Shown here piece after piece: positions 3,227 to 57,939 of a stretch of 64,000 nucleotides of DNA (position 1 is its first letter; each line of letters starts with the position of its first letter). Source of the DNA: Synechococcus sp. AG-679-C18 (GTDB lineage Bacteria; Cyanobacteriota; Cyanobacteriia; PCC-6307; Cyanobiaceae); assembly GCA_003210755.1 (NCBI GenBank), contig QCUL01000002.1, forward strand, positions 1 to 64,000. Reading direction: 5' to 3'. A program made the translations under genes and the position numbers. The notes under the pieces are model-generated. The model was not told the origin of the DNA. It worked only from the letters and a program-made list of their open reading frames with translations, and did not search any database.

Positions 3227-5220
<1,994 letters not shown>

Positions 5221-5310
5221 TCAGCTTAAACTTAACACCGGTATGCCAGAGGCGCTTGCAGATGCCTCTGAGAGGTCATTTTTAGAGGGGGTGCACCCAT
5301 CACTTCTTCG

Positions 5311-6243: not shown

Positions 6244-6296
6244 AGTGAATAACTCTGCTGACACTTCTAACAATCAGCAGTCTTTTTCATCACTGA

Positions 6297-6935: not shown

Positions 6936-7705
6936 GCTGCTTCCAGAAGCAGTCGCCAGCCCTCCTGCGCTGAGGTCTGGTGACACTGCTCACGGGCTTC
7001 ACACATGAAGCCATGATCAGCGCCCTCAAAGGCGCTTTAGCGCAAACGCAGTCCAGTGGGATCCTCCCCTTGCAGTGCAGCCTGAATCGCCTATTGCTCT
7101 GAGTTTGGGATTAGGGGATCGATGCTGCCCCACAAGCAATGAAGCTCTCCTTGCACCGAGGGCAGCAGCTCCAAGCTGGGGGCTCCTCCACCGTGCCGCC
7201 CAAGGCTCACCCCTGCCCCATAGAAATCCAAGCTGACATGCACGTCGGCCAGGGTGGCGGCCAGCAGAGCGGCATGCCCGCCAAAGCAGAACCCCACCAC
7301 CGTGATGCGCAAGGGCTGATCACGGGATTCAAGAGCCTGCCGCAACCAATCGATCGAGGCTTGGACATCCGCAAGAATCCCCTCGGTTCTCGTGGCCTCC
7401 TTATGGCGCCGACCTTCGCTAGTGAACTCGGAGTCGTACCCCAACTCCAGCTCTGGAGCTGTGCGCGCAAACAGTGGCATCGCTAGGGCCGGAACACCTG
7501 CTGCCGACAAGCGGTCGGGCACACCCCTCACCCAACGATTCAGCCCAAAGATCTCAGGAAGCACGATCAAGGCACGCGTCGCTGGCTTCGCGTTATTGAT
7601 GGGCGCCCACCAACAGCGCAACGGCACAGGACCGGTGTTGATCGACACCCATGCCCCAGGCGATGGCTCGGGAAGAACAGGAGGGAAAAGAGATGAAGTA
7701 GGCAT
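6926..7705 (-). pseudogene. Dienelactone hydrolase family gene broken by two stops
   Basis: An alpha/beta-hydrolase of the dienelactone hydrolase family with nucleophile Cys in GFCFGG and the acid in WGSIDPL. The open part is 204 codons and ends at TAG 7091-7093. Reading on in the same frame gives 17 more codons, a second stop TAA at 7037-7039, then 36 codons to a TGA at 6926-6928. That last piece contains ADHGFM, which carries the catalytic His of the family. The full frame is exactly 260 codons, the normal length, so only the two nonsense codons break it. The truncated product lacks the catalytic His and is probably inactive. The 3' end overlaps infC by 10 bases. Confidence 0.85.
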
Positions 7706-7754
7706 CAGCGCGTGAAGATAAGCCGCTAGATCGGGGCAAGGATCAGCTCAGCAA

Positions 7755-8798
7755 TTGTCACCAAGCCATCCAGTCCTTAAGGTGGCCACATCAATCCGGT
7801 CCACCGGCGTGCGATTCCACATCCAACAGGAAAGCGACATTCCGGCATCGACCCAGCTCTACAACCAGATCTGTTTCGCCATCGCTGCCCGGCACTACCC
7901 CCCTGGGCATCGGTTACCCAGCACGCGTCAACTCGCGATGCAGACCGGCTTGCATCGCAACACCATCAGCAAGGTGTACCGACAGCTTGAAACCGATGGT
8001 GTGGTGGAAGCCATGGCAGGGTCTGGGATCTACGTACGCGATCAACAAAAGCCACGGGAAATTCGAACACCACCCCACATCCGCAATCGTGGGGTGACCG
8101 ATCTCGATCGAGAGGTTCGCAAATGCGTAGATGGCCTTCTCAATGCCGGTTGCACCCTGCAGCAAACCCGGGAACTACTCACACGGGAAATTGATTGGCG
8201 CCTACGTTGCGGGGCTCGAGTGCTTGTGAGCACCCCGCGCGAAGACATTGGCGCTTCGATGCTGATCGCCGAAGAACTGGAACCAAACATCAACGTTCCC
8301 GTGGAAGTGGTACCGATGGAAGAGCTGGAAAGCGTTCTTGAAAACGCGAGCAATGGAACTGTGGTGACCAGCCGCTACTTTCTCCAGCCTGTGGAAGAGC
8401 TAGCCAAAAAGCATGGTGTACGCGCCGTCGCGGTGGATCTCAATGACTTCCGGGATGAGCTGGCGATGCTGAAAGAGCTCCGCCAAGGTAGTTGTGTGGG
8501 CTTGGTAAGCATCAGCCCTGGCATCTTGCGAGCCGCCGAAGTGATCCTTCACAGCATGCGCGGCAATGACCTGCTCCTAATGACGGCCACTCCTGATATA
8601 GGAAGCCGCCTCCTGGCACTCCTGCGGGCCTCAAGCCACGTGCTCTGCGATCGCCCCAGCATGCCTCTTGTGGAGCAGTGTCTTCGTCAGAACCGCTCCC
8701 AGCTGATGCGCATGCCTCAAGTGCACTGCGCTGAGAGCTACCTCAGTGGTGACACCATCGAGCTTCTGCGCAAAGAAATCGGCCTGATCAGCAGCTAA
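7755..8798 (+). CDS. GntR-family transcriptional regulator
   Basis: A 347-aa protein with an N-terminal GntR winged helix (LYNQICFAIAARHYPPGHRLPSTRQLA, then TGLHRNTISKVYRQLETDGVV) and a C-terminal region of about 240 residues that I do not assign to a known effector domain. That region is not the MocR aminotransferase fold. The longest start is TTG 7755; GTG 7809 (VRFHIQQE) is a plausible alternative that begins right at the DNA-binding domain. It is divergent from the broken dienelactone hydrolase gene. The target genes are not evident. Confidence 0.85.
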   Translation: MSPSHPVLKVATSIRSTGVRFHIQQESDIPASTQLYNQICFAIAARHYPPGHRLPSTRQLAMQTGLHRNTISKVYRQLETDGVVEAMAGSGIYVRDQQKPREIRTPPHIRNRGVTDLDREVRKCVDGLLNAGCTLQQTRELLTREIDWRLRCGARVLVSTPREDIGASMLIAEELEPNINVPVEVVPMEELESVLENASNGTVVTSRYFLQPVEELAKKHGVRAVAVDLNDFRDELAMLKELRQGSCVGLVSISPGILRAAEVILHSMRGNDLLLMTATPDIGSRLLALLRASSHVLCDRPSMPLVEQCLRQNRSQLMRMPQVHCAESYLSGDTIELLRKEIGLISS

Positions 8799-8867
8799 AC
8801 CACAACACTGAGGGTTACCCGCACGAGATGATGCCAGCATCAGCCACAGGCTCAAAGACGCAAGGCC

Positions 8868-9605
8868 ATGATTGATCAAATCAGGGCAGACTTTGCGATT
8901 ATCCGCGAACGGGATCCGGCGGCACGCGGTCCCCTGGAGATTCTTCTCTGTTATCCAGGATTTCAAGCGATCAGCCTGCACAGGCTGAGCCATCGGCTCT
9001 GGAGATCCCGTCTACCCCTGAAGCTTCCTGCACGTTTGCTCAGCCAGCTGGGACGGGGCCTGACTGGTGTTGAAATCCATCCGGGAGCAACGATCGGTCG
9101 TGGCGTGTTCATTGATCACGGAATGGGCGTCGTAATCGGAGAAACAAGCGAAATCGGCGATCGCTGCCTGTTGTATCAAGGCGTCACGCTGGGCGGTACG
9201 GGCAAAGATCACGGCAAACGTCACCCAACCTTGGCCAAAAATGTTGTTGTTGGTGCAGGCGCCAAAGTTCTTGGCGCGATCACTGTGGGTGCCAACACCA
9301 GGATCGGCGCAGGATCGGTTGTCGTTCGCAATGTGGAGCAAAACTGCACGGTGGTGGGCGTCCCAGGGCGAGTCATCCATCAAAGCGGAGTTCGCATCAA
9401 CCCCTTGGCGCACTCGGCTTTACCGGATGCGGAAGCCAATGTGATTCGCAACCTCATGGAGCGGATTGATCAACTTGAAAATCAAGTCGGCGAACTGCAG
9501 ACCTGCCTTCGCGAGGTTGCCGCTGGTCGCCCCATTCGTGAGGTCTGCGGCGGCAAGTCCCAAAATCTCAAAGATCGAGAAATTCTTGAGTTTTTGGGTG
9601 AGTAA
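8868..9605 (+). CDS. cysE: Serine O-acetyltransferase
   Basis: Makes O-acetylserine from serine and acetyl-CoA, the first step of cysteine synthesis. The 245-aa protein has an N-terminal helical region ([30 protein letters not shown]) and a left-handed beta-helix of hexapeptide repeats with the active-site segment [33 protein letters not shown] and GAGAKVLG then follow. A short C-terminal coiled stretch ends the protein. The gene is convergent with secA, 13 bases apart. Confidence 0.97.
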
Positions 9606-9618
9606 TCATCGCTTCTAT

Positions 9619-12471
9619 TCATGCACTAGTGGTCTGGGCAGCCGCCGGCGGCGCGGGTTGGAACATAAACATCGAGTAGATCACATTACGGCGCATGTTT
9701 GTCATCATCTCCAGGAACATGTCGTAGCCCTCGTTTTTGTATTCAATAAGGGGATCTTTTTGGCCATAGCCCCTCAGGCCTACTGATTCACGCAATGCAT
9801 CCATAGCTTGAAGATGTTCGCGCCATAGGGTATCGATTTGCTGAAGGATGAAGAAACGCTCTGCTTCTCGCATCAAGCCTGGACGGAGCTCTTCGATCTG
9901 ACCTTCTTTGAGGTCATAGGCATTGCGCAGTTGCTCCTGAAGAAATGACTTGAGTTCATCCATGGATAGCCCCTGAAGTTGCTCTGCCTTGAGGTCTTCC
10001 AGCAAGTACACAAACTCCTGCACCTTGCTCACCAACTGCGAAACATCCCATTCTTCTGGCGGAAGGTCTGGATTCACATAAGCCTCCACAATTTCATTCA
10101 TCGTGCGCTCCCCATAACCGATAACTTGCTTCTTAAGTTCACGACCATCGAGCACACGACGCCTTTCGGTATACACCGCTTTGCGTTGATTGTTCATCAC
10201 CTCGTCGTACTCAAAAACCTGCTTGCGGATGTCGTAGTAGTACGTCTCAACTTTCTTCTGGGCACCCTCCAGAGAGCGGGTAAGCATGCCTGATTCAATC
10301 GGCATATCCTCCTCCACTCGGAAGGCATTCATCAGCCCGGCTACGCGCTCACCTCCAAAAATGCGCAGAAGGTTATCGCCTAGAGATAAAAAGAATCTGG
10401 TGCTGCCGGGGTCCCCTTGACGGCCCGCGCGACCCCGGAGCTGGTTGTCGACACGACGCGATTCATGCCGCTCAGTGCCGATCACGTGGAGACCACCTGC
10501 TTCACGAACGCCAATTTCCTCCTGCTTCACCACAGCGTCATATTCAGCTTTGACGTCATTGATAGAGGTACGCAATTGGGCGATCTCAGGGTCCTCAGTC
10601 GGTGCTTTTTCTGCCGCTGTTGCGATGCGATCTTCCAGTTCGATCACGCTGAGAGTGCGATCACCCCAAGACTTCACCAGTTGCTTAGCCAACCCAACAA
10701 GAGCCTGATCGGTGTCATCAGAGAGCTGGCAGGGATAAAGATTGCCAATCGCCTTGGCCTCACTGGGGGCACTGCCATGAGCACCACTCGCAGGGGCAGG
10801 CTCAGAGAAACCGCCGCCGCCTTCAGCACCGCCCTGGAGAGGAACCGGGGGACGATGACCTTCTTCTGGGCGCACCAGACGAGGCAGTAACACTTCGCGC
10901 ACCTTGAGGCGCGCCATGTAATCGCTATTCCCACCAAGAATGATGTCAGTGCCGCGGCCAGCCATGTTGGTGGCGATGGTCACAGACCCCGCCCTGCCAG
11001 CCTGAGCAACAATTTCAGCCTCCCTCTCCACGTTTTCAGGCTTGGCGTTCAGCAGGTTGTGGGGGATCTCCTCCTCCGCCAACAAAGCGCTTAACAGCTC
11101 ACTCTTCTCCACACTGGTAGTACCAACGAGCACGGGGCGACCCTGCTTGTGCACCTCAGCGGTTTCCTTGGCAACGGCACGCCATTTGGCCTGCTCGGTT
11201 TTGTACACCTGATCCACCCAGTCCTGACGAGCTCGTGGCCGGTTGGTGGGAACAATGGCGGTCTGCAGGGTGTAGGTCTTCTCAAATTCCACTTCCTCAG
11301 TTTTCGCGGTGCCAGTCATCCCAGCCAAACGGGGGTAGAGCAGGAAAAAGTTCTGATACGTGATGGATGCCAATGTCTGCGTCTCTGGCTGGATAGCCAA
11401 CCCTTCCTTGGCCTCAATCGCCTGATGCTGGCCATCACTCCAGCGCCGTCCAGGCATCACACGTCCTGTGAACTCATCCACAATCACGGCCTCGCCATCG
11501 CGAACGATGTAATTCACATCGCGAACAAACAGCTCTTTCGCCTTGAGAGCATTCGTGATGTAGTGCGCCCATGGATCCTGAGGGTCATAGAGGTCAGCAA
11601 CACCAATCAGCCCCTCAGCCTTAGCGAACCCTTCATCGGTGAGCGTTGAGCTTCGCTGCTTTTCATCCACCTCGTAATCACCTTCTGGATCGATACCGTC
11701 CTTGCCCATTTCTGCTGCCCGATCCAGCGCTTCAGCGACCTCAGCTGCTTTCTCATATTTTTCTTGGGGTCTTTCCACCTGGCCGGAAATGATCAAAGGC
11801 GTGCGTGCCTCGTCGATCAGGATGGAATCGACTTCGTCGATCACGCAAAACTGAAACTCGCGCTGCACCACCTCATTGATGTCAGCAGCCATATTGTCGC
11901 GCAGATAATCAAAGCCAAGCTCTGAATTGGTGGCATAAGTGATATCGCAGCCGTAATTGATACGACGCTCTGCAGGCGACATGTCCTGCTGAATCAAACC
12001 AACGGAAAGCCCCAAAAAACGGTGGACCTGACCCATCCATTCCGCATCGCGGCGAGCCAGGTAGTCATTCACCGTCACAACATGGACGCCTCGTCCGGTG
12101 AGCGCGTTGAGATAGCTGGGAAGAGTGGCGACAAGCGTCTTGCCCTCACCTGTTTTCATCTCAGCGATCTGGCCCTCATGGAGCACCATCCCACCGATCA
12201 TTTGGACATCAAAATGGCGCATCCCTAGCACCCGCTTGCCCGCTTCTCGTACCACCGCAAAGGCTTCGGGCAATAAATCGTCGAGCAGAGGCCTTTGTTT
12301 CTCCAAGGAGCCTGCGTTCTCTAGGCGCTGACGAAACTCAGCTGTGCGCGCTCTTAAATCGTCATCGCTCATCGGAGCAATGTCTTCTTCAAGCAAATTG
12401 ATGTCGGACACGATCGGCTGATAGCGCTTCAGCTTGCGGGCATTGGGGTCACCCAGCAGGAGCTTGAGCAT
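9619..12471 (-). CDS. secA: Preprotein translocase ATPase SecA
   Basis: Motor of the Sec pathway that pushes unfolded preproteins through SecYEG at plasma and thylakoid membranes. The 950-aa product starts [10 protein letters not shown] at 12471; the frame is open to 12552, but that extension is not family-like. Motifs are the Walker A region [31 protein letters not shown], and the helicase-like [13 protein letters not shown] and [13 protein letters not shown]. An insert rich in Gly/Ala/Pro sits between the helicase motifs. The C-terminus lacks the zinc-binding CxC motif, as is usual in cyanobacteria. Confidence 0.98.
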
Positions 12472-12574
12472 GGGAGCAGCCAAATCGTCTGCGGGACAGC
12501 CTACTGAGGCCTCCCTGATGGCATGGCTATGACGAGTAAAAATCTGGCTCAACGGCCTTCACCTCAAAAGAGGC

Positions 12575-13684
12575 TCACGAAAGAACCGATTGCAGGCATC
12601 TCAACCAAACCTTGCGTGCAAACAAATTCAGATATCTTTCCCGTGCCTCAAGTCCCAGCTCCCTACGCAAATCAGGAGAGGTCGCCAACTGATTGAGAAC
12701 CATCAGAAGCTGATCAGGTTGTTGCGACCAGGACAAACCGGGCAGCTGTCCTACCCAGCCCATTCCAGAACGATGGTGCTGAAAAGCGAGTGAAGGCATT
12801 CCGGCCGCCATCGCCTCCAACTGCACGATGCCAAATGCTTCTGTAGAGCGATCCGAGGGAAGCACCAGTACATCTGCAGAGGCCAGTTGCTCGACCTTCG
12901 CCGCTTCATCCAAACGGCCTAAAAAGGTCACCGCAGCGTTCGCACCAAATAATTGACCACTGAGAGCTTCGAAGACAAGACGGCGAGGACCATCTCCCAC
13001 CACCGCCAAAGACCAAGGATCCTTCAAGGAGGAGAGCGCTTCCAACAGCCAATCCAATCGCTTGTAGCTATCGAGCCTGCCGATGAATAACACTCGTAAT
13101 GGCGTTGCCGTTATCGGTCGTGATGGCATCGCCAACAAGATCTTTTCTTGCTCTGCATTCAGACAACAGGGCAACACAGCAACACGAGCCTGCTGACAGC
13201 CACAACGAATCAACTCGGTCGCCACAACAGGGGATGTTGCAATGACTTTCGTCAAATGGGGAACCACACGAAGTGCCAACCACTGATACAAAGCAAACAG
13301 TTGACCCTTCGAGCCTGGCTCAGGAGCAACAAAGCAATGCCAATGTGCGAACACCGGCCGATCCGGTTTCAACAAACGGGCCAAGAGCAACACCAACAAC
13401 ACTCCTGGCGAAGGCAAGTGCCCGTAAAGAGGTCGAGAAGAACGCAATAAGCGCCACAACACTCGTGATGGCAATGGAAGCAACAAGCGACCGAAGGGTG
13501 AACACGTCGGCAAAACCCTTCGGAGGTAATCAACCTTCAAAGCATCGATTTCATCTTCACTACGAGATTGCGCATCAAAGCTGTAAACCGTCCCACCCCA
13601 TGCACTCGCCAATTCATGAGCCACCCTCTCCACTCCGCCGTAGCCGGGGGGCCATTCGCGCATCAGCTGAAAAGGAGATTCCAT
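12575..13684 (-). CDS. GT4-family glycosyltransferase
   Basis: Retaining glycosyltransferase of the GT4/GT-B class, 369 aa. The N-terminal acceptor domain begins LMREWPPGYGGVERVAHEL, with the glycine-rich loop. The C-terminal nucleotide-sugar domain has VLFIGRLDSYKRLDWLLEAL, VVGDGPRR and the E-x7-E element around EAFGIVQLEAMAAGMP. The donor sugar and acceptor are not readable. It lies just upstream of secA on the same strand; linkage to secA appears positional only. Confidence 0.9.
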   Translation of the reverse strand: MESPFQLMREWPPGYGGVERVAHELASAWGGTVYSFDAQSRSEDEIDALKVDYLRRVLPTCSPFGRLLLPLPSRVLWRLLRSSRPLYGHLPSPGVLLVLLLARLLKPDRPVFAHWHCFVAPEPGSKGQLFALYQWLALRVVPHLTKVIATSPVVATELIRCGCQQARVAVLPCCLNAEQEKILLAMPSRPITATPLRVLFIGRLDSYKRLDWLLEALSSLKDPWSLAVVGDGPRRLVFEALSGQLFGANAAVTFLGRLDEAAKVEQLASADVLVLPSDRSTEAFGIVQLEAMAAGMPSLAFQHHRSGMGWVGQLPGLSWSQQPDQLLMVLNQLATSPDLRRELGLEARERYLNLFARKVWLRCLQSVLS

Positions 13685-45709: not shown

Positions 45710-47515
45710 TCAATTCAGCTTGCGATTGCGATTCCACACCTCAATCACTTTCTTAGCCATCGGCAACGCATGCACTGATCCACCCCCAGGTGTGTTCTGA
45801 GCGAAGGCCACCACAACGATCTCGCCGTTTGGGTACGGGGCATAGCTAGCGAACCAAGCATGATCTGGGCCTCCCGTGCTGTCTTCCGCTGTTCCGGTCT
45901 TCCCAGCCGCAGGAGGAATGCCCGCTCCGTTGAGGCCATAGCCGGTCCCATCCTCAACCACCTTGCGCAGCCCTTCTCGGATTTTGGCCAGGGTGGAAGG
46001 CTTAATTAATACCTTGCTGCGCCGCGAAGGGGCCATCCAATCAAGACCCTGATCCGCAAGATGAGGGGTTACCAGCCAACCACCGTTCGCAAAAACGGAA
46101 TAAGCCCGCGCCAATTGAAGAGGGGTGATCTGGACCACCGACTGGCCAATCGAAGCCGAGGCCATGTCTTCAGGAATCCAGGGAGTAGAACCAGGTTTCG
46201 CCCAGCCGCGGCCCGCCGCCGCCCAGTCTTCATCTCCTACAAGGCCAACGTTCTCTTCCCAGCCGATTTCAATCCCCGTCTTACTCCCAAAACCAAGTTG
46301 GGTAGCGGCTTTCTTGAGTGCTAAGGAACCCGAACCAACACCGACTTGATAAAAAAACGTGTTGCTGGAGAAGCGCAGGGCATCGGCGTAACCAATCCGT
46401 CCGAAACCAGCACCATTGTGATCAGGAAAACAGTGCCCTCCGTAGGTGATACATGCCGTGGTGTTCAACTTCACGTCAGGAGGAAATCGACCCGTCTCCA
46501 TCCCTGCCATCGCTGTCACAGGCTTCCAGGTGCTGCCAGGGTCATAGGCATTCATCGCACGGCTCAACAGCGGCTTTTTCGGATTGGAGAACAGCGCGTC
46601 GTACTCCTTCTGAGTGGTCACCAACTTGGAGAAAAAATTAGGGTCAAAGTTGGGGTTACTCGCAAGGGCCAAGATTGCTCCATTCCGAGGGTCCATGGCC
46701 ACAATCGCGCCACCAGGCTTGTCAGCTAAGGCTTTCTCAGCCACCTTCTGCAAATCGAGATCTAGCGTAAGTGTGAGATCTTTTCCAGCCACAGATGGGC
46801 GATCGCCAAGGTGCCTCTGCACCTCACCCATCGCATTCACTTCCAGCATTTGCCCACCCCACTCCCCGCGCAGATGAGACTCATAGGCCGCCTCCACCCC
46901 AATCCGACCGATCCGATCTCGAATCTCATAGCCACGCTCAGCAAGAGCTTTGTATTCCTCCTCTGTAATCGGCTGGGTGTAGCCCAGGGCATGAGCTGCG
47001 AGGGTCCCATGGGGATAGGAGCGAAGAATATCCACATCCACCTGTGCCCCCTTCAGCTCATGAGACTGCTCACGAAACCTCAGGACCTGCTCAGCCGAAA
47101 GTTCTGTCGCCAAATTAACTCTATATCCGTTGCGATCAGGACCTGACTGGCGACGCTGATCAAGGGTCGATTCATCAATTTTTAAAAGACTGGATAATCG
47201 AACGCGCAGCTCAGGCCAAGTTTCATCGTCCACCAATCGTGGCTCCACATAGAGCGAATAGGTGAGCTTGCTAGAGGCCAAAACTCGACCTTTACGATCC
47301 AAAAGTCGACCACGAGTTGGTGATCTGGGGACCAGGCGAATGCGATTTTCATCCGCAAGTTGTCGATAGCGAGGCCCTTCCAAGAGCTGCAGCCAAGCCA
47401 ACCGCGACACCATCGCTCCACAAAACAGCAGCACCAATCCGAACAAGACAAGAGGCTGTTGACGCAAACCGCTTTGACGCTGAGCGTCCCTTTGAGGTGT
47501 GGCTGAGCGGGTCAT
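45710..47515 (-). CDS. mrdA: Penicillin-binding protein 2
   Basis: Peptidoglycan transpeptidase of the elongation machinery. The 601-aa product has one N-terminal membrane helix (LVLFGLVLLFCGAMVSRLAWL), a dimerisation region with RGRLLDRKGRVLASS, and the transpeptidase domain with SxxK (DPGSTWKPVTA), SxN (RFSSNTFFYQ) and KTG (AAGKTGTAEDS). The stop is one base from the sqdX stop on the opposite strand. Two unknown genes lie directly upstream on the same strand (5 and 14 bases apart). Confidence 0.95.
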   Translation of the reverse strand: MTRSATPQRDAQRQSGLRQQPLVLFGLVLLFCGAMVSRLAWLQLLEGPRYRQLADENRIRLVPRSPTRGRLLDRKGRVLASSKLTYSLYVEPRLVDDETWPELRVRLSSLLKIDESTLDQRRQSGPDRNGYRVNLATELSAEQVLRFREQSHELKGAQVDVDILRSYPHGTLAAHALGYTQPITEEEYKALAERGYEIRDRIGRIGVEAAYESHLRGEWGGQMLEVNAMGEVQRHLGDRPSVAGKDLTLTLDLDLQKVAEKALADKPGGAIVAMDPRNGAILALASNPNFDPNFFSKLVTTQKEYDALFSNPKKPLLSRAMNAYDPGSTWKPVTAMAGMETGRFPPDVKLNTTACITYGGHCFPDHNGAGFGRIGYADALRFSSNTFFYQVGVGSGSLALKKAATQLGFGSKTGIEIGWEENVGLVGDEDWAAAGRGWAKPGSTPWIPEDMASASIGQSVVQITPLQLARAYSVFANGGWLVTPHLADQGLDWMAPSRRSKVLIKPSTLAKIREGLRKVVEDGTGYGLNGAGIPPAAGKTGTAEDSTGGPDHAWFASYAPYPNGEIVVVAFAQNTPGGGSVHALPMAKKVIEVWNRNRKLN

Positions 47516-47520
47516 CTCCC

Positions 47521-47916
47521 TCAGCTCTCAGGCTCAATCTGAGCCTCTAAAGCTTGAAGGCGTTGTGCAATCCTCTCCAGGACCTCATGCAACTCCTGAT
47601 CATCCTGCTCAGGAGAACAGCCCTCCTCAAGAACGTCGTACACCTCAGATGAAGGTTCTTCCACGGCCACCTGCACAGGCATGACTGGATTTCCCAACCC
47701 AGGACTCAATTGATCAAGTCGTTCACGAACATCTTTAGCCGCAGGTTCCCCCTCGTCGCGCAACTCACGCAATGGATCTGACGCACCCGATGTGAATGAC
47801 TCCACTACTTTCCCCGGACCACCCGCACGAACGCGTTCAACCAAAGCAAGTCCTACGGGTAATACCTCCTGCATTAATGACAATCTCAAGGTGTCAAACG
47901 GTTGACTCTCAGCCAT
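47521..47916 (-). CDS. Unknown 131-aa protein upstream of mrdA
   Basis: A 131-aa acidic soluble protein that I do not recognise. It has no signal peptide or membrane helix. The N-terminus (QPFDTLRLSLMQEVLPVG) is helical, and the C-terminal part (DQELHEVLERIAQRLQALEAQI) is a likely coiled coil. It ends 5 bases before mrdA and begins 14 bases after the 214-aa gene, so these three are probably one operon. Its first 20 codons are repeated at 54074-54132 in the right-hand duplicate. Confidence 0.7.
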   Translation of the reverse strand: MAESQPFDTLRLSLMQEVLPVGLALVERVRAGGPGKVVESFTSGASDPLRELRDEGEPAAKDVRERLDQLSPGLGNPVMPVQVAVEEPSSEVYDVLEEGCSPEQDDQELHEVLERIAQRLQALEAQIEPES

Positions 47917-48606
47917 GAGCAGACCCGATTTCAGCGCACTCCAGTCTGCTCCGGAGGAGGCAAAAGTGTTGGACAGGTTGAATTAGATGACCCCAGCCAC
48001 CAGCCACCGAAGCCAGTCAGAACCAAGAGAGCTACCGCTGGTCCTAGTGCTTGGTGGGTGGCTTCTAGAGCCAGCCACTCCCCCCAGGATCGCCAAAATC
48101 GATCGCGAACAAAGCGACGTCGTTCCCGCGTCTCATTCTTTGCGCGTCGACGGTAAGACTTCTCTACCCAGCGCTCGAAGGATCGCTTCTTAGTGATCGC
48201 CATCTTGCGCTCCACCTCAAGAAGGTGTCCCGAGCTCAGCTCAGGGTGGAACGTCCCAATCAGCTCAAGGCTCTTGAGGAACATCTCCACGGCACCATCC
48301 TTGATCTCCCGATCAGAGGTTTCAAGCGAAGTCCAATCGAGCTCTGGATAGAACCGGCTGCGATTGGAAGCGATCTGCTCCTCGGGGAGCTGGCCCGGTT
48401 CACGCAACCAGCGATCTGTGTTGCTGTCAAAACGTCGCCAATAAAGGAATGGATTGATGTAGATCGCTTTCCCAGCAAGCGGAATGCTGTCCTGCTGAAG
48501 GCGGCGCTGAAGCTGGATGTCCTGCTCTTGAGCAGTGGTCAAGGATTTGCAGCCGGGCGCTAAGGATATCGACATTGAGGCTGATTCACCAGCCCTTCAA
48601 ACAGCC
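47858..48606. repeat. Direct repeat, left copy
   Basis: This segment matches 54074-54822 in the same orientation, offset 6,216. From 47858 to 48461 I find no difference. From 48462 on there are scattered substitutions (for example 48462, 48467, 48471, 48477, 48481, 48483 and 48501), and the similarity ends near 48606. It contains the 214-aa gene and the first 20 codons of the 131-aa gene. Confidence 0.93.
47931..48575 (-). CDS. Unknown membrane-anchored basic protein, copy 1
   Basis: A protein of 214 aa from ATG 48575, or 203 aa from TTG 48542, the start shared with the other copy. The centre is very basic (RSFERWVEKSYRRRAKNETRERRRF), then a hydrophobic helix (GPAVALLVLTGFGGWWLG) and a short Pro-rich tail, suggesting a C-terminal membrane anchor. 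No family recognised. It heads the likely operon with the 131-aa gene and mrdA, so a cell-wall link is possible. Near-identical copy at 54147-54758. Confidence 0.72.
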   Translation of the reverse strand: MSISLAPGCKSLTTAQEQDIQLQRRLQQDSIPLAGKAIYINPFLYWRRFDSNTDRWLREPGQLPEEQIASNRSRFYPELDWTSLETSDREIKDGAVEMFLKSLELIGTFHPELSSGHLLEVERKMAITKKRSFERWVEKSYRRRAKNETRERRRFVRDRFWRSWGEWLALEATHQALGPAVALLVLTGFGGWWLGSSNSTCPTLLPPPEQTGVR

Positions 48607-49200
48607 TTATTCATTCAATCGGAATTTGCCACTCCAGGCTGCAAAATCGTGCTGAGAACGTTCTGCGGGGTAAAACCAAATGAAATCCGTTCATACTGGC
48701 AGAGACTAAGGTATAGGATGACTTAAACTAGTCACCTACATATAATCCGTAGAGAAGGAGCCCAGAATTCAGTCCATGGTAACAAATTGGGGAGCAAAGT
48801 TTGCATCCAACTCAAACACATCGCGCGTATTCACACCACCAAATCCAGACAAATAATTGTGTAGCACAATAAATTGTTATTGTTTTTATAGCTAGAATTC
48901 CTACTCTAATAAAATAATCATTTCCTTGCTTTTGCCGAGACAAAAATTAAGAGCTGACGGCGACTTTCATGTTAGCCAAAATATATTTTTCATGAAGCAA
49001 GGCACAACCTATACATTAAAACCTTTGCTGCCAATGATTATACAAAACCTCGAAGTAACTTGAGCGTTTGGAGGCACGTTAATGAACAGTACCACCATTA
49101 GCTGGCGTAATATGAAAGCCGCGATGTGTACTGATCTTCGGGCGACTAACATAGACAAATCCTAATTGCATTCGCAAGGAATGCGCAAAGAGAACAAGCG
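48607..49200. other. Gap without intact genes; possible ORF remnant
   Basis: About 590 bases of low-GC sequence without a credible full gene. On the minus strand, 48769-48880 reads as an open C-terminal-like tail (SGFGGVNTRDVFELDANFAP, ending in TGA), which may be a remnant of a larger lost gene, possibly a surface protein. This is a guess. Confidence 0.3.
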
Positions 49201-50037
49201 CTAATCACGGCTGAGCAAATACCAGTCATCGAACATTGACAGGTGTTGAAACACTTGTTTGTATCCTTTGTCGAGCAGCAAAGCTTTTATTTCTACTCTG
49301 TTGTTTTCTACATAATTATGTTCCACGCAAATTGAGTAGATTTTTCGGGTTCTGAAATTATGTGATTGAAGGATTTCCAGTTCCCCTCCTTCGGTGTCTA
49401 TGGATAAAAATTGAATTTCGTTGGGCGCGTGGTGTTGGTCTAGCAAGTCATCAAGAGAAATGGTTTCAACTTCGTAGCAAATAGAGTTTTTTAGTCGGAT
49501 ATTGGAAGCCCAATCTCCATTGTTGGCAAACTTCTCAACACTTGATAACTCAGGAAAGCTATCGCTGGAATTTTCCACCTCGAGGAATTGATAGTTGAGA
49601 CCACTTGTTTTTGCTACGCATCTTGTGTCAATGCTGCAGCTTCTATTTTTGGCTAAGGCGTCGTGCCAGATTTTGGCTGGCTCTGCCAGAATTCCATTCC
49701 ATCCAAGCTTTTTTTCTAAGAGCCAGGTATTGCTGAGGCTAACCCCATCTGTTGCGCCAAACTCAACAAAAAACTTAGGAGAAATACTTTCTGTGAATGC
49801 TAATGCAAATAAATCTTGGGCAAGCTGTGCTTTTGAATAGGGTAGAAACGGTGCTATTAGTTCTCGCTTTTCTTGCGGAAGCTGACTATAAAGAATTGAG
49901 GATCTATCTAAACTGCGGTAAAATCTGACCTCGTTCCTGAGCTCACTGACCTCGTTCCTGAGCTCATTTAGGTTGTCGGCGCTCGCGAGCTCTTTTCCTG
50001 CCGAGCGAAGAACTTTTTTTAGGGCTCGCTTAAGCAT
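49201..50037 (-). CDS. FkbM-family methyltransferase
   Basis: A 278-aa SAM-dependent methyltransferase of the FkbM class, usually O-methylating sugars in surface polysaccharides or glycoproteins. The SAM-binding region is FFVEFGATDGVSLSNTWLLE with ILAEPAKIWHDAL, followed by LDDLLDQH and the FkbM-typical FLSIDTEGGELEIL. Residues 1-60 form a coiled coil in which a heptad is duplicated (NELRNEV, SELRNEV). It is an intact gene in the low-GC island, which suggests gain by transfer. Target unknown. Confidence 0.88.
   Translation of the reverse strand: MLKRALKKVLRSAGKELASADNLNELRNEVSELRNEVRFYRSLDRSSILYSQLPQEKRELIAPFLPYSKAQLAQDLFALAFTESISPKFFVEFGATDGVSLSNTWLLEKKLGWNGILAEPAKIWHDALAKNRSCSIDTRCVAKTSGLNYQFLEVENSSDSFPELSSVEKFANNGDWASNIRLKNSICYEVETISLDDLLDQHHAPNEIQFLSIDTEGGELEILQSHNFRTRKIYSICVEHNYVENNRVEIKALLLDKGYKQVFQHLSMFDDWYLLSRD
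49925..49966. repeat. Tandem 21-base repeat in methyltransferase coiled coil
   Basis: Two exact, adjacent 21-base units (49925-49945 and 49946-49966) encode a repeated seven-residue heptad. The length keeps the frame, so copy number could change without breaking the gene. Confidence 0.9.
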
Positions 50038-50329
50038 AATGATACAAAATCTTTTCTGATCTTAGTCCCACAGCCAGCAACGCCAATCTGTTGGCCTCCA
50101 AGATATTGCCCAGGATTTCAAGGAGGTTTGGACAATATATCTCAAGAACACTTCTAAGCATTTTCTCTACAGGTCTCTCTTCACATTCTCTACCGCTGCC
50201 TTTGTCATATTGTCACATCAGGAACCACGAAATTCTCCTTCAGTAATAGGCTTGGCACCCAAACAATCTCCTTATCCATATTCATCAGGTCAGCAGTAGC
50301 AAAACTGCTTAAAGTATGGTAACAGTATT

Positions 50330-51080
50330 TCCGTAAGTAGGTCCGTTATGCGCATTTTTTCGCAAAAAGTATAACGAGTGGTGCCGTACTGTCAGAAAAG
50401 AGTGGCGTATAGATGTCTGAGTAAGTAGAGCACCAACTCCTTACCCAACGCTCGTTTTCTTTCGTATAGAAAATCATTTTCCTGAATAGATCCCGAAACG
50501 TCTTCGTTGTGAAATGGAGTTCCGTCTAAATTGCAGAACAAATAAACCTGCTTCTTCTCGTGCTCAGATTTATCCCACACACGCTTGGCGAACTCCTCCC
50601 CTCCCCCCACCGATGCCCTATCTAGCTCCTGTCTTGGTAGAAGCGTGGACTTGGACTAAAGCAATGATGCTCTTCAGCAAGTTAGAACCTTCTCGCTCAC
50701 TGAACTGGATGCCTTCCTCTTCACCTTCATGAGTTCCCCACTTCTCATCCCGCTATTTGCCCAGGAAGAACACCATCTGCTAAGCCACGAAGGCATCACA
50801 GACCTGCTTCTCGGACCCATCTGACTGGGTAATTAGCAATCACGAACACGACGGGGCAATGAATTCCACTCTTGGGCTTCCAAGATATCCCGACGAACTT
50901 TATCGTCCATAATTAGGTGCTCATCTTGAAAAAGAAAGTTTGGATGAAAAGGAAACATACCCGTTCTCCATCTCCCACTTCCACAACTCCCTATTCATCC
51001 CCATCTCGTGCTGGATGGTGATTGCCTGAGGGTTCTTGCCGCTCAGTGTTTGCTTGTTGTCCTTTCTCCAGACCTATGAA
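50330..51080 (-). pseudogene. Decayed tyrosine recombinase (integrase)
   Basis: On the minus strand several frames together rebuild the C-terminal part of a tyrosine recombinase. In order: NKQTLSGKNPQAITIQHEMG; WKWEMENGYVSFSSKL; (frameshift near 50930) DEHLIMDDKVRRDILEAQEW; a TAA at 50833-50835; then box I ANSGMRSGELMKVK with the catalytic Arg. Another shift leads to GGGEEFAKRVWDKSE, then box II LLRHLYATLF, a stop at 50392-50394, and QYGTTRYTFCEKMR. The one-base insertion near 50930 and CAA-to-TAA change are confirmed by comparison with the related piece at 52600-52825. The N-terminus is not found. Confidence 0.7.
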
Positions 51081-51522
51081 GTTACAACACGATGGGAGCC
51101 TACTTTGGGCATGATTATGAAATTGGAAGCTTATTCAAAATAATAAACCGCTTGCCTAAGTCACAGCCGCCGCTCATTGCAAAACGAAACGCTGTATATA
51201 TAGATTTTTTATATCTAGATAGGTGATGACATTCACCAGTGCGTGAATACACCGATCAATTGCATAACAAAAGCGAAATGAGACAATACATATCTGTCAT
51301 GGATTGGTCAGCTTCAGACTTTCTGAGTTGTCTCATGCCTTGCCAGCCAGCACTGCTCCCATACCGAAATCGGAAGCCAAGAGAGAAACGTAACAAAGTA
51401 AAGCTAAGCTGATTACAAAGTGTTCAAACCTGCTCAGAACGATGAAAACAAATTCCAATTTTTTAATTTCACAAAGTCTTATTACTTACCATCAAACAAA
51501 AACACAATCCTATAGATTGCAT
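51081..51522. other. AT-rich gap, nothing recognised
   Basis: About 440 bases of low-GC sequence between the recombinase remnant and the broken methyltransferase. No open frame, RNA or repeat could be supported. Confidence 0.5.
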
Positions 51523-52346
51523 TTATTGATTTTCAAATTTAGCAAAATAATCTAAAATATTATTCTTATCAATTGATAAATCATGAGCCAAACCATCTCT
51601 GCCAACAAACTCTGGAAACGCGAGCTTTTCTTGTGAAAGATGTTGCGCAAAAATCAGTCCATCAAAAGAGGTCGCTTCAACTGAATAATTAGACTCAACC
51701 ACTATTAGCATCCCATATTTTCTCAATAAATCGATACATTTATAATGCAAATCATCACTATAGGCAGAAACAAATGTGTTTTTACGCTACCCTCAATAAA
51801 TAATTTTTCAGTCCCTAAAAGCATTTTCTCTTCATAGTCTTGTATATCATAATGCAGTATTGTCAGATTATCGCTTGATTTCGAAAGAAAAGAATCTACG
51901 TTGAACATATCATGGTCATCCCTTACAAATTAGTTTATAAAGTTACCGCGGTAGTTATTTATTTTGAAATTGTGAATTCCTGCTTCAATATTTTCTTTGC
52001 AGGGCTCAACCACAACAGCCTTAGCTGACGGAAAAGCTTGCAAAAACCACATTGAGTAATGAGCCCAGTACGATCGAAGCTCTAATAGACAAGGGTCAAG
52101 TAAATTTTTGGACTTAAGAGAAGCAATGAGCTCTTGAAATATAAACTCTTCTAGAGGTTCATGCACTCTTCGATTGATAACTAAGATTTCACTAAATTCT
52201 TTGTAATACGAAAAATCACCTTTATGATTTATAATGTGGCCATTGCGCAAGCACACTTATTCGCCAAGACATCTGGCCAAATCCAGGATGACGGTTAATA
52301 AGAAAATTAATTGGATCAGAAATAGTCTCTCTATATCACCCCAAAA
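51523..52346 (-). pseudogene. Broken FkbM-type methyltransferase
   Basis: Three frames on the minus strand join into one methyltransferase-like protein. The N-terminus is INFLINRHPGFGQMSWRISV; a frame change near 52250 leads to RNGHIINHKGDFSYYKEF and LELRSYWAHYSMWFLQAFP with AKAVVVEPCKENIEAG. An in-frame TAA stands at 51930-51932, followed in the same frame by VRDDHDMFNVDSFL and LHYDIQDYEEKMLLG. A second frame change near 51780 leads to LRKYGMLIVVESNYS and the end ILDYFAKFENQ. At least three lesions make it non-functional. The intact FkbM gene at 49.2-50.0 kb is not a close copy. Confidence 0.72.
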
Positions 52347-52650
52347 ACTCTGATGATCTTGGAGGGGATAGACTTTTGCATGATTTCAAAAATTGATATC
52401 ATTTTCAGGATTCAGTTGGACTACGCTTCTTCCTCGATTAAAGAAAAGATTTTTAAAAGTGTTTTATTGATATTGCCTAGAAAAAGTGAGCAGATTTTTG
52501 ACTTTGGCGATTAATGCTATTAAATATTTTCAAATCATTTAGGGTTTGCTCTTGAAATGTTTTGGAAAACAACACTGCTTCAAACTTTGGGTAAGGATAA
52601 AGGTGAAAAGTATCTGTTACCACACCTAGCAATCCCAGACCAGTTTCTCA
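52347..52650. other. AT-rich gap, nothing recognised
   Basis: About 300 low-GC bases between the broken methyltransferase and the second recombinase piece. No gene, RNA or repeat supported. Confidence 0.45.
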
Positions 52651-52825
52651 GCCTAATCTCATCTGACTGGATAATTGCCACTCTCGAAGACGCCGAGCAA
52701 ATGACGAGCACTCCTTCGCCTCCCAAGTGTCCCGACGAACTTTGTCGTCCGTGATCAGGTACTTGTCGTGAAACGGAAGTTTGGGGGTGAAGGCAATGAG
52801 CGAGTTCTCCATCGCCCACTTCCAG
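52650..52825 (-). pseudogene. Second tyrosine-recombinase fragment
   Basis: On the minus strand one frame reads WKWAMENSLIAFTPKLPFHD, DKYLITDDKVRRDTWEAKEC and FARRLREWQLSSQMRLG, then stops. It aligns with the larger remnant at 50.8-51.0 kb (WKWEMENGYVSF, then DEHLIMDDKVRRDILEAQEW) without its frameshift or its TAA. Only this internal block is present; the catalytic boxes are missing. It abuts the adhesin fragment at about 52825. Confidence 0.65.
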
Positions 52826-54073
52826 CACCAACACTTTGTGCAACAAAAGCAGGAGAATATTGCCCACTAGTTTGAATAGATCCATTATATCCAGAATCTA
52901 CAGATAAGGAATTTATGACCTGATCTTTATCTCCAACAACAACTAAACCACCATCTCCACCATTGCCAGATTTACCTCCAATCGATAGAGCCAATGAAAC
53001 ACCCACTGGACCTCCACTTGCAGCTACGGTTGTGGAATAACCACCACTACCACCAACCCCTCCGACACTCTGTAAAAATACACCAGTAGCAAACTCTCCA
53101 GTTGTTTTAACAGAAGTGCGGCCGATTTGAGTATCAAGTTTTACTTCGCCACCAGCTCCTCCTTCGGATCCTTCACCACCAAGAACGATAGATGCTGACC
53201 CAAATAAACCTGCGGAAATTGCGACTGATCCACCACCATTTCCACCACCACCGCCAACTGATTGGCCAAATAATCCAAATGAATTATTCCCAGTAGTAGA
53301 AATATTTGATGTGCTTCCACTGGTTTGACCACTTAAGTTTAAATCAACATCACCTCCAGCACCACCGGCATCTCCCTTCCCTCCAATAGCAAGTGCAAAA
53401 AATGGACCCAGAGCAACCGATGATCCACCATTGCCGCCCCCACCGCCGACAGATTGAGCGAATATTCCATGCCCTCCTTTCAAAGTAGTGCTAGCTGGTG
53501 AGATATTTATAGAAGTGCGAATTAGCCCTTCATTGGTTATGTTCACATCATTACCTTTACCTCCGTTAGAGCCTTCTCCTCCTAACGCAACGAGTCCACC
53601 GGCATTCCCAGCTTCTCCTCCACTACCTCCAACAGACTGCGCAAAAACTCCACCGGAATTAATCCCATAGGTGGAAATAGAACCAAAATTTCTTACTGTC
53701 ACAGTGCCTGCAGTACCGCCTAATCCGCCTTTTCCCCCTACGGCGAGCAGCCCATAGGCATCACCACCACTTCCTCCTCCTCCTCCAATACTTTGTGCTT
53801 GAACACCTCTGGAATAATTGCCAAAAGTTTTCAGCTCTCCATAATTATCAAATATTAAATCACCTGAGTCTCCGCCAGAAGAGCCTTTCGCATTCCGACT
53901 CCAAATCAAATTCCCTGAAGTTCCTGCATCACCACCAGCGCCTCCAACACTCATGGCATAACAGCATGAGAAAAATCGCCATTTGTCTGAATGATTGGTC
54001 CAGAAGAAGAATCACCATTAATAACCGTTACTTTGCCGCCATTTGCACTTCCGCCACCCTGTCCAGTCCAACC
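52826..54073 (-). pseudogene. Fragment of a large Gly-rich repeat adhesin/autotransporter
   Basis: An open stretch from 53954 encodes six blocks with the core (A/L/G)QSVGGGGG (cores near residues 54, 106, 167, 231, 295 and 373, spaced 52-78 residues), separated by beta-strand segments such as TAGTVTVRNFGSISTYG. This pattern occurs in large autotransporter-like adhesins of bacteria. The fragment lacks a signal peptide and a beta-barrel. Upstream to 54073 the same protein continues (GWTGQGGGSANGGKVTVING) but in another frame; a one-base loss near 53955 separates them. The left end runs into recombinase DNA at about 52825, adding about 20 foreign residues. It is an internal piece of a much longer gene. 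Confidence 0.78.
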
Positions 54074-54132
54074 GGTAATACCTCCTGCATTAATGACAAT
54101 CTCAAGGTGTCAAACGGTTGACTCTCAGCCAT
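54028..54132 (-). pseudogene. Truncated copy of the 131-aa gene fused to adhesin DNA
   Basis: The first 20 codons of the 131-aa gene (from ATG 54132, MAESQPFDTLRLSLMQEVLP) are identical to 47858-47916. At 54073/54074 the sequence switches to the adhesin fragment, and the frame ends at TAA 54028-54030 after 34 codons. This marks the left edge of the right-hand duplicate. Confidence 0.75.
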
Positions 54133-54822
54133 GAGCAGACCCGATTTCAGCGCACTCCAGTCTGCTCCGGAGGAGGCAAAAGTGTTGGACAGGTTGAATT
54201 AGATGACCCCAGCCACCAGCCACCGAAGCCAGTCAGAACCAAGAGAGCTACCGCTGGTCCTAGTGCTTGGTGGGTGGCTTCTAGAGCCAGCCACTCCCCC
54301 CAGGATCGCCAAAATCGATCGCGAACAAAGCGACGTCGTTCCCGCGTCTCATTCTTTGCGCGTCGACGGTAAGACTTCTCTACCCAGCGCTCGAAGGATC
54401 GCTTCTTAGTGATCGCCATCTTGCGCTCCACCTCAAGAAGGTGTCCCGAGCTCAGCTCAGGGTGGAACGTCCCAATCAGCTCAAGGCTCTTGAGGAACAT
54501 CTCCACGGCACCATCCTTGATCTCCCGATCAGAGGTTTCAAGCGAAGTCCAATCGAGCTCTGGATAGAACCGGCTGCGATTGGAAGCGATCTGCTCCTCG
54601 GGGAGCTGGCCCGGTTCACGCAACCAGCGATCTGTGTTGCTGTCAAAACGTCGCCAATAAAGGAATGGATTGATGTAAATCGTTTTTCCAGCTAGCAGGA
54701 TGCTGTCCTGCTGAAGACGGCGCTGAAGCTGGATGTCCTGCTCTTGAGCAGTGGTCAAGGATTTGCAGCCGGGCGCTAAGGATATCGACGCTGAGGCTCA
54801 TCCACCAGCCCCTCAAAGAGCT
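54074..54822. repeat. Direct repeat, right copy
   Basis: Matches 47858-48606 in the same orientation, offset 6,216. The part 54074-54677 appears identical to the left copy; the rest differs at scattered positions until similarity ends near 54822. Confidence 0.93.
54147..54758 (-). CDS. Unknown membrane-anchored basic protein, copy 2
   Basis: The second copy of the gene at 47931-48575. It gives 203 aa from TTG 54758. The ATG used for the 214-aa form in copy 1 is GCG here, and a TGA stands in frame shortly upstream. Only two residues differ from copy 1 in the shared part (Ile/Thr changes in DSILLAGKTIYINP versus DSIPLAGKAIYINP); the rest, including the basic centre and C-terminal membrane helix, is the same. 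It no longer leads into mrdA. Whether it is expressed is unknown. Confidence 0.68.
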   Translation of the reverse strand: MTTAQEQDIQLQRRLQQDSILLAGKTIYINPFLYWRRFDSNTDRWLREPGQLPEEQIASNRSRFYPELDWTSLETSDREIKDGAVEMFLKSLELIGTFHPELSSGHLLEVERKMAITKKRSFERWVEKSYRRRAKNETRERRRFVRDRFWRSWGEWLALEATHQALGPAVALLVLTGFGGWWLGSSNSTCPTLLPPPEQTGVR

Positions 54823-55065
54823 TTCTTTCAAGTCAGTATCCCCGCATGACTTATTGGTGATATCGCTACAACGCGATTGATAATTTTGGGCTCAGAAACA
54901 ATCCGACTAGTAATCAACTTTTTAAGCCCTGAGGATCCACCGAACAACCAACAATATTTTCAACTTCACTAGAAGGAAAATATGCCACAATCGAACATCT
55001 AAGGATATTTTTTGTGGGTTAATTAGCCTTCTCTAGGGAATGGATACGAACTCTCGCTAAATCTA
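54823..55065. other. Intergenic gap, nothing recognised
   Basis: About 240 AT-rich bases between the right repeat and the terminator of the histidine phosphatase gene. It should hold the promoter of the copy 2 gene, but no clear element was found. Confidence 0.45.
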
Positions 55066-55099
55066 TAAAAAACGCCAACACTTTCAGAAAAGTGCTGGC
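55066..55099 (-). terminator. Rho-independent terminator of the histidine phosphatase gene
   Basis: On the minus strand GCCAGCACTTT and AAAGTGTTGGC form an eleven-base-pair stem with one non-Watson-Crick position around a short loop, followed by GTTTTTTA. It lies 32 bases past the stop of the gene at 55131. Confidence 0.85.
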
Positions 55100-55130
55100 A
55101 TGTCAGCAATACAACGGATAAACAATTCTT

Positions 55131-55877
55131 TTAATACTGGGCTAATACTCTCCATTGGGTTGGAAGAAGCTTTGCAACCAGATCAAACTTGCCATTTCCC
55201 ATTGGTTTAACTACATAAGACACACCCATTGGGTCAGGGTAAATACCCTGAGGTGGCTCTACTCCCATTGTTGCACCTTGGAATGGATCATCATGCCCAA
55301 CTAAAAATGTGTTGGTTCCAGAAGCCGGTTTCGCGGAAAGGAGAGGTGAAACTCGTCGGCTATATTCTTTATAATCTTGGGGAGTACATTCAACACAAGG
55401 AAGGAAGTTTAGGTTTGAATTTTTAGTGTATTTACCAAAAGCAAGTTGCGCTGTGTTGTAGGCACGGCAATAATCGCTGGAAACAACTTGACCTACAGGA
55501 ACTCTTGCAGATTTAACACCTTTACCAATAATCATGGCCTCTTTTTTACCATCAGGACTCAATCTACGCTGAGTGCTGCAATCCGAAAGATTGAGAGTTT
55601 TGCTGATTTGATCCCCCCAATCCTTATTGGTCCTTGCATGACGCATATAAATCACATATCCACCTCTGCGGAGATCGTTGGCAAGCTGCTGGGCTCCAAC
55701 TTTATTAATGAAATCAGCATTTCGCTGATCTCCGGAAATAGTTGCAGCATTAATTTCGTAATCTTCAACGTTGGCTTTTGCCGAATGCGTGTTTCCAATG
55801 GTTGACGCAGCAAGCAAACCCCCAACAATTACAGCCGCTGGAAGTGAAAGAGAGCGAATGTTTTTGAGCTGATTCAT
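55131..55877 (-). CDS. Exported histidine-phosphatase-family protein
   Basis: A 248-aa protein with an N-terminal signal peptide (LSLPAAVIVGGLLAASTIG, cleavage near SAKA). The histidine phosphatase core has IYMRHARTNKDWGDQ with the RHA form of the RHG motif and the nucleophile His. VSSDYCRAYNTAQLAFG carries the second Arg, and the C-terminal FLVGHDDPFQG has the second His. It would hydrolyse a phosphate ester in the periplasm; the substrate is unknown. Its gene has its own terminator and a long AT-rich upstream region. Confidence 0.85.
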   Translation of the reverse strand: MNQLKNIRSLSLPAAVIVGGLLAASTIGNTHSAKANVEDYEINAATISGDQRNADFINKVGAQQLANDLRRGGYVIYMRHARTNKDWGDQISKTLNLSDCSTQRRLSPDGKKEAMIIGKGVKSARVPVGQVVSSDYCRAYNTAQLAFGKYTKNSNLNFLPCVECTPQDYKEYSRRVSPLLSAKPASGTNTFLVGHDDPFQGATMGVEPPQGIYPDPMGVSYVVKPMGNGKFDLVAKLLPTQWRVLAQY

Positions 55878-56352
55878 TACAAATTGAATTTCTATTAAAA
55901 ATTAATCCCTAAAGAGCGATTAGGCAAGTATAAAAAAATACCTCAAAAATCATTAAAAAGAAGCTGATATGTATTAGCACAATCCTCCTTAGCGTTTATT
56001 TGATACATGCTGAGAATCAGATGAGAGCTGATTGCCGTATGTTCCGAATTTATAACTACAATTTTTAATTCAAAAATACAAGAAAATCATTTTTTCTAGT
56101 CTCCTGGCTTTGCAAAACCATATTACAATTATTTCTCGATGAAACGACACGTCAATCTTCATTTTGAAGATGTTCAATACGCCCTGTAGCACTAAGCAAC
56201 ATTATCAAAATAACGAATTGCAATAGCAAAAAACTTAAGCCTAAAGTCCAAACATTTAACCAAGCGTTGATTAAGTAGCAATGATATCGATCACATTCTC
56301 CATTTCCATTTGATACGTATCGTTCAGCCTTCCTTTGAGCAATGGCTAAGAG
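55878..56352. other. Long AT-rich intergenic region
   Basis: About 475 bases between the start of the histidine phosphatase gene and the end of guaA. It is low in GC and holds no credible ORF or RNA that I can support; the phosphatase promoter should be near its left end. Confidence 0.45.
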
Positions 56353-57939
56353 TCATTCCCACTCTATCGTTCCGGGAGGCTTACTAGTGATATCCATCAC
56401 GACACGATTCACTCCTTTTACCTCATTTACGATCCGGTTGGAAATTGTTTCCATCAGGTCATAAGGAAGTCTTGACCAATCAGCGGTCATACCATCCTCA
56501 CTCGAAACACAGCGCAGCACAATGGGCCAGGCATAGGTGCGCTTATCACCCATGACACCCACCGAGCGCACGGGAAGAAGAACGGCAAACGCCTGCCAAA
56601 TATCGTGGTAGAGCCCAGCTGCACTCACCTCCTCGCGGACGATTAGATCGGCATCACGCAAACAATCAAGCTTTTCTTCTGTCACTTCGCCCAGGATGCG
56701 AATCGCCAGTCCAGGGCCTGGAAAGGGATGGCGGCGCACGATTTCCTCAGGCAAACCCAGCGATCGGCCCACCTTGCGCACTTCGTCTTTAAAAAGCTTG
56801 CGGAGGGGCTCCACCAACTTGAACTGCAGATCTTTAGGCAGGCCACCGACGTTGTGGTGGCTTTTGATCTTCACAGCCACACGCTCACCGGTTTTGGGAT
56901 CAACATTGGTTCCGGCACTCTCAATTACATCCGGATAAAGAGTGCCTTGGGCTAGGTAATCAAAGGGTCCAAGTCGGCGACTTTCCTCTTCAAAAACACG
57001 GATGAATTCCGTTCCAATGATTTTGCGTTTAGCTTCCGGATCAGTGATGCCATCAAGCTTCTTAACGAACCGTTCTCGAGCACTAATATATTCAACATTG
57101 ATATTAAATTTACGGTCAAAGAAGTCCATTAAAAATTCAGGCTCACCCTTACGCATAAATCCCTGATCAATGAACATGCAGGTGAGCTGATCTCCAATTG
57201 CCTTCTTCAACAGAAATGCAAGCGTTGAGGAATCCACCCCGCCAGAGAGAGCCAAAAGCACACGCTTGCTGCCAACTTGTTCGCGCACATGATTAACAGC
57301 TTCATCAATGAAGGCGTCGGTAGTCCAATCAGGTTCGCATTCGCAGATGTGATAAACAAAATTGCGAATCATCGCCATTCCACAAGTGGAATGAACAACT
57401 TCAGGATGAAATTGAACACCGTATAAATGTCGATTGTGATTAGCAATCGCCGCCTCAGGCGTATTAGCCGTATGGGCCAAACGAACAAAACCTTTCGGTA
57501 AGGCTTCGACCGAATCACCGTGACTCATCCACATCGTGGAGCCAGTGTCCACGTTCGTAAGCAGATCGGTGGGATCATCCACCAAGAGAGGTGCCTTCCC
57601 ATATTCAGCTCTACCAGAAGCAGCCACAACCTGACCTCCAAGCTGCTGAACCATCAACTGCATGCCGTAACAAACACCGAGGACTGGAATTCCCAGATCC
57701 CAAATCGCTGGGTCGCAAAGAGGAGCCTCATCGGCGTACACCGAATTTGGTCCTCCGCTGAGGATGATTCCGCGCGGAGCCAAAGCACTTAATTCTTCAG
57801 CGCTGGTGCTGTAGCCCAATACCACCGAGAAAACCTCTGTCTCACGCACTCGACGTGCGATCAGTTCCGAGTACTGGGAACCAAAATCAAGAATGACGAT
57901 GGCCGGTTTGCGCTGACCTTCGCTCTGGACTGATGACAT
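56353..57939 (-). CDS. guaA: GMP synthase (glutamine-hydrolysing)
   Basis: Converts XMP to GMP with glutamine as amino donor. The 528-aa product has an N-terminal class I glutamine amidotransferase domain ([24 protein letters not shown] with the catalytic Cys, [11 protein letters not shown] with the catalytic His). It also has the ATP-pyrophosphatase P-loop [17 protein letters not shown] and the C-terminal dimerisation domain with [16 protein letters not shown] and ending in GTIEWE. Length is normal. Confidence 0.98.

Follow-up and report, generated by a model that had tools for sequence, protein, structure and literature searches.

The 3′ end of guaA very probably acts as a hotspot for insertion, and positions 48606-56352 of the window (the whole stretch of 64,000 nucleotides analysed here) are, with the same high probability, a decayed composite of what has entered there. 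We favour this reading of the sequence comparisons because relatives offer an unbroken empty site, the distance between guaA and the neighbouring gene g214 varies, copies of the guaA end are repeated in direct orientation only, recombinase genes adjoin guaA and remnants of such genes lie in the window. The wider account, which combines an attachment site at guaA and a decayed composite with a join between two versions of the locus, is probable as a whole, since each copy of the doubled g214 keeps its own guaA-end boundary and the differences between the copies lie on one side only. The initial annotation had read the region as an accessory island bracketed by the two copies of g214. The DNA is indeed accessory and acquired, being missing in insert-free relatives, but the copies are not its borders: inserted DNA extends from 48606 past copy 2 to the guaA stop, and in relatives the site is filled by recombinase-carrying elements at the guaA 3′ end rather than by an island framed by g214.

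A doubled host gene

In the window, blastn detected one long direct repeat pair, 757 bp at 98.018% identity with an offset of 6216 (47849-48605 and 54065-54821), so the 749-base direct repeats 6,216 bases apart of the initial annotation are real. The repeat is not due to chance, because all 628 repeated 25-mers of the window stem from this pair and no inverted recurrence of any 25-mer was found there. Likeness between the copies fades over nine bases at 47849-47857, seven of which match; the next 604 bases (47858-48461) carry no difference, and all the differences of the 749-bp repeat, 14 in 145 bases, lie at 48462-48606. This near-perfect stretch had been taken as the mark of a recent event or a later gene conversion, and 604 identical bases speak for either. 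Copy 1 continues downstream via p131 to mrdA; copy 2 breaks within p131 and enters an adhesin piece. The host genes and the repeats are laid out as follows.

45710-47515, minus strand: mrdA (PBP2), host gene (open reading frame; name from the initial annotation, order in relatives)
47521-47916, minus strand: p131, host gene between g214 and mrdA (open reading frame; order in relatives)
47849-48605, minus strand: repeat copy 1, covering g214 and the first part of p131 (blastn)
47931-48575, minus strand: g214 copy 1, full frame (open reading frame, genus genome search)
54028-54132, minus strand: beginning of p131, truncated behind copy 2 and joined to the adhesin piece near 54065 (translation across the junction)
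54065-54821, minus strand: repeat copy 2 (blastn)
54147-54758, minus strand: g214 copy 2, full frame from TTG (open reading frame, genus genome search)

No Pfam or NCBIfam family matched g214. The gene gave a single match in all 27 other genus genomes that hold it, searched as whole genomes, and is doubled in this genome alone of 28; three of the 31 genus genomes, each at most 85% complete, gave no match. Nor was a second copy found in any of 80 public loci, viewed over at most 10 kb on each side. The clean order of gene, 131-aa frame and mrdA with one copy, for which the initial annotation had proposed to look in relatives, is present in 27 of 27 genus genomes and 80 of 80 public loci. A composite transposon, with cargo between two direct IS copies, was considered and rejected: the repeats consist of a conserved host gene together with a portion of p131, without a transposase family.

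An insertion that reaches the guaA stop

When the guaA stop (56353) is joined to 48605, the alignment runs unbroken over 4484-4487 bp at 82-83% in all five insert-free relatives (L116-L120). Because the joined ends align without a break in five of five, we place the inserted DNA at 48606-56352 and the site at the guaA 3′ end. In L116-L121 g214 follows guaA, with 34-54 bp separating the aligned ends. The roughly 5.5 kb of low-GC cargo reported earlier corresponds to the DNA between the copies (48607-54064; 5,458 bp, 42.0% GC vs 53.3% for the window), and low-GC DNA (38.9%) goes on past copy 2 as far as the guaA stop. Judged by the alignment, the insertion includes copy 2, the phosphatase gene and a decayed second guaA end, and the island first described is its inner part.

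48606-56352, no strand: whole insertion, 7747 bp, missing in insert-free relatives (empty-site alignment)
48606-48622, minus strand: degenerate guaA-end remnant adjoining copy 1, about 16 bp (blastn extends to 48621 in 5 of 8 relative loci; alignment)
49201-50037, minus strand: FkbM-type methyltransferase gene, open frame (PF05050, 2.3e-15)
50220-51073, minus strand: recombinase remnant 1, spread over three frames, profile positions 167-454 (profile match)
52666-52827, minus strand: recombinase remnant 2, profile positions 196-249 (profile match)
52830-54064, minus strand: glycine-rich adhesin piece, cut at both ends (open reading frame 52755-53954; likeness to contig C12)
54822-54973, minus strand: decayed second guaA 3′ end adjoining copy 2, about 150 bp (alignment)
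55131-55877, minus strand: histidine-phosphatase-like gene, NF004841 (family match; homologue in G008)
56353-57939, minus strand: guaA (528 aa), the host gene at whose 3′ end the DNA is inserted (open reading frame; empty-site alignment)

What does the inserted stretch contain? Of the methyltransferases in the initial annotation, the FkbM-type gene is confirmed, and two more of the 31 genus genomes hold distant relatives of it; the further putative methyltransferase pieces at 51523-52256 were judged by eye only. A perfect 21-bp tandem duplication lies near the start of the FkbM gene (49925-49966). The decayed recombinases turn out to be two remnants of the tyrosine recombinase that adjoins guaA in relatives, and their profile ranges overlap, so that there were formerly two genes, or one that was duplicated. 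The adhesin piece is glycine-rich, and no family in Pfam, NCBIfam or PHROGs matched it; this genome has a further glycine-rich adhesin gene on its contig C12 (L123), with 64% DNA likeness to the piece (window 52926-53464). At the same site, G008 holds an 81% homologue of the phosphatase gene, and a second stretch resembling the window's gene, at 70% DNA likeness, lies at 1127-1621 of this genome's 4.35-kb contig C70 (L122). The stretch 54822-54973 aligned with four guaA ends at scores of 18-26, against shuffle maxima of 14-15. Two observations in the window run counter to our account: neither the Rep gene nor the 316-aa gene carried by related elements has left a significant trace there, and the guaA piece beside copy 2 exceeds what a 16-bp attachment core would leave.

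Variable DNA behind guaA in relatives

Among the 28 g214 loci of the genus (one per genome, the window included), guaA was in view in 26, and the gap between the two genes exceeded 500 bp in eight of these and was at most 250 bp in 18. In the 80 public loci guaA was in view in 54, with gaps above 500 bp in 22, of 251-500 bp in six and of at most 250 bp in 26; nine of the 26 loci in which it was not in view have 9 kb or more of sequence on that side. The two sets have some genomes in common, and the islands are not all independent, because three locus pairs among the 29 islands outside the window share much sequence. The last 16 bp of guaA are directly repeated in 14 of 30 islands (16 copies, with at most two mismatches), and inverted copies occur in none of the 30. 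Counting against the proposed account, the direct repeat is missing in the other 16 islands, the window offers no clean repeat of the guaA end (guaA's own core and only the degenerate remnant beside copy 1), and a recombinase was detected in only six of 30 islands, window remnants included.

Recombinase-carrying elements at guaA

An intact recombinase of about 460 aa lies directly behind guaA in G018, G025, G005 and the Prochlorococcus contig L041. PF00589 matched in all three proteins scanned (L143, L142 and L041), together with one sub-threshold match to DUF6538. Searches covered 31 genus, 400 family and 399 order genomes, which are overlapping, even samples, and a match with an E value of 1e-50 or better was counted as strong. 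Besides the genome under study (G000), strong relatives occurred in 13 genomes (G001, G005, G016, G018, G025, G039, G041, G106, G114, G279, G302, G428 and G437), and in 12 of these the short locus also contains guaA. The recombinase of G001 is a fragment and that of G106 contains a stop. The exception, G114, has a recombinase fragment (L181, 6815-7363) with no guaA within 18 kb. None of six weaker recombinases checked lay beside guaA.

Nine longer guaA loci hold a near-full recombinase (L142, L143, L146, L041, L176, L177, L179, L180 and L182; L178 repeats L041). Six of these carry a Rep, assigned to REP_ORF2-G2P in both proteins scanned, and eight carry a protein of 316 aa. A search of 400 family genomes detected the 316-aa protein in 25: in the eight that have an intact close recombinase (G005, G016, G018, G025, G039, G041, G279 and G302), in G126 and G294, where a recombinase was not reported, and, as more distant forms, in a further 15. 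L041 also encodes a serine recombinase and a helicase-like protein, the latter with a sub-threshold match to DUF5906 and weak similarity to phage records. The elements seem to stack, because several guaA ends lie behind guaA in single loci, two in L041 and four in L176; no such copies were found in L179, L180 or the short L182. The four further ends in L176 (G302, 1432-12990) are spaced 0.9-7.6 kb apart and form a possible tandem array.

The 316-aa protein (L041, 4410-5357) matches 190 homologues with E values of 1e-3 or lower, with no precomputed Pfam domain in the 120 listed. Its N-terminal half, as modelled, resembles ParB/KorB DNA-binding domains, and the protein is perhaps ParB-like. Distant relatives of it lie in stretches with tRNA-Ser(cga) in three of six loci fetched: L207 (G023, 8858-9826), L209 (G034, 7920-8891) and L212 (G290, 7927-8862). 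A weakly related recombinase is also present in L207 and L209; L207 has an FkbM relative as well. Because these distant relatives share stretches with tRNA-Ser, the guaA elements may be related to elements that target tRNA genes, and the protein is a possible shared hallmark of guaA- and tRNA-associated elements.

How was g214 doubled?

According to the model that we propose, tyrosine recombinases would place small elements, at times in tandem, in the gap between guaA and g214, where they would decay; the direct repeat would be a by-product of this traffic and not the border of an element. Two versions of the locus may have been joined, the first with the order guaA, phosphatase, old guaA end, g214 and p131, the second with the adhesin piece, recombinase remnants, FkbM, guaA-end remnant and g214. 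The join would be homologous near 48461/48462 and illegitimate near 54065, where p131 and the adhesin piece share a short match. Such a join would yield two exact copies of 604 bp, with the 145 bp past the crossover still divergent. Such a fusion is, in our judgement, the likeliest source of the duplication, with about an even chance. It counts against the account that no donor of the 5′ end of copy 1 was found.

That 5′ end also bears on a different history, in which g214 was duplicated in place long ago, as the island formed, and a recent gene conversion left 604 bp identical and the island-side 145 bp diverged. Residues P21 and A26 in the 5′ end of copy 1 each occur in none of 107 relative loci, and of the 14 differences five are derived in copy 1 and two in copy 2 (with seven relatives as outgroup), an excess that is small; both observations lend this history some weight. 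Nine private bases are common to both copies within the 145, so the copies would have split after the lineage left its relatives. This history requires two events, however, and a conversion that stops at the edge of the repeat; we consider it rather unlikely.

More doubtful still is an artefact, whether two haplotypes fused at their shared gene or an amplification chimera. Junctions at very short matches are typical of chimeras, and the one near 54065 would lie at such a match; the assembly is moreover a draft of 91 contigs, 93.67% complete. On the other hand, the copies differ at 14 sites, their flanks are different and locally sensible, the stated contamination is 0.17 and the window contains no N. 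As for the g214 copies being the working borders of a unit mobile by recombination between them, 604 identical bases would serve RecA, which could in principle excise a circle between them, and single-copy alleles exist, but such a role as borders is highly improbable given that inserted DNA reaches beyond copy 2, that the repeated ends in intact relatives are guaA ends, and that two copies occur in none of 27 other genus genomes and none of 80 public loci.

Implications

What are the wider consequences of a guaA hotspot? We tentatively suggest that a so far undescribed family of small integrative elements targets guaA in marine picocyanobacteria. It would possess its own recombinase clade, a rolling-circle-type Rep and the 316-aa protein, perhaps ParB-like, as a hallmark that is shared with elements near tRNA-Ser, and its members would stack in tandem; in the window, decayed arrays of two strains would have been spliced, with a core gene captured and doubled. 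A search of the literature at hand found no description of guaA-targeting elements in these organisms. The guaA hotspot adds a protein-coding attachment site to the map of gene exchange in marine picocyanobacteria, for which tRNA genes are the described case, and the recombinase and the 316-aa protein serve as a marker pair for finding further elements. Close relatives offer an empty site, intact elements and scars on which the life cycle of the elements can be studied, and the doubled g214 is an example of a hotspot disturbing its core neighbours. The hotspot and its elements are of more interest than the repeat itself.

Comparison with known systems

Song et al. 2012 is reportedly a source for guaA-associated genomic islands. 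In the available parts of the reports, GIsul2 and ICERspD18B are proteobacterial islands at the guaA 3′ end with the core GAGTGGGA (PMC9376610, PMC7775301), excision and integration have been demonstrated for GIsul2 (PMC7775301, PMC9376610), and guaA-associated islands often have P4-type integrases and AlpA (PMC7775301). As far as those descriptions go, the elements studied here resemble them in several respects: the window insertion lies at the guaA 3′ end and starts at the guaA stop, direct repeats in relatives' islands share the core GAGTGGGA (14 of 30; the window itself has guaA's own core and a degenerate remnant at the other side), a tyrosine recombinase gene is present, intact in relatives and decayed in the window, and extra att copies lie inside arrays. 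They differ in that the recombinase matches only the general Phage_integrase model, with sub-threshold DUF6538, and in its partners, here the REP_ORF2-G2P Rep and the unnamed 316-aa protein; no P4-type or AlpA model matched among the element proteins scanned, which were part of the set.

Homology-facilitated illegitimate recombination, in the portions of the literature at hand, has one homologous and one illegitimate end and has been put forward to explain why old genes persist next to new modules (PMC5361080, PMC3240628). The join proposed for the window would likewise have one end of each kind; unlike the cases in those portions, it is read from sequence only and its outcome is a duplication.

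Tycheposons of Prochlorococcus, as presented in the part of the report available, carry cargo and tyrosine recombinases and are described at tRNA genes (PMC10872708). The nearest tRNA in the window is at 60426; of six guaA-element loci scanned, five contain none, and the sole one in L143, a tRNA-Gly, lies on the opposite side of guaA. On that description, we do not assign the elements to the tycheposons, as the attachment site here is guaA and not a tRNA gene; what they have in common is cargo, a tyrosine recombinase and the same organisms.
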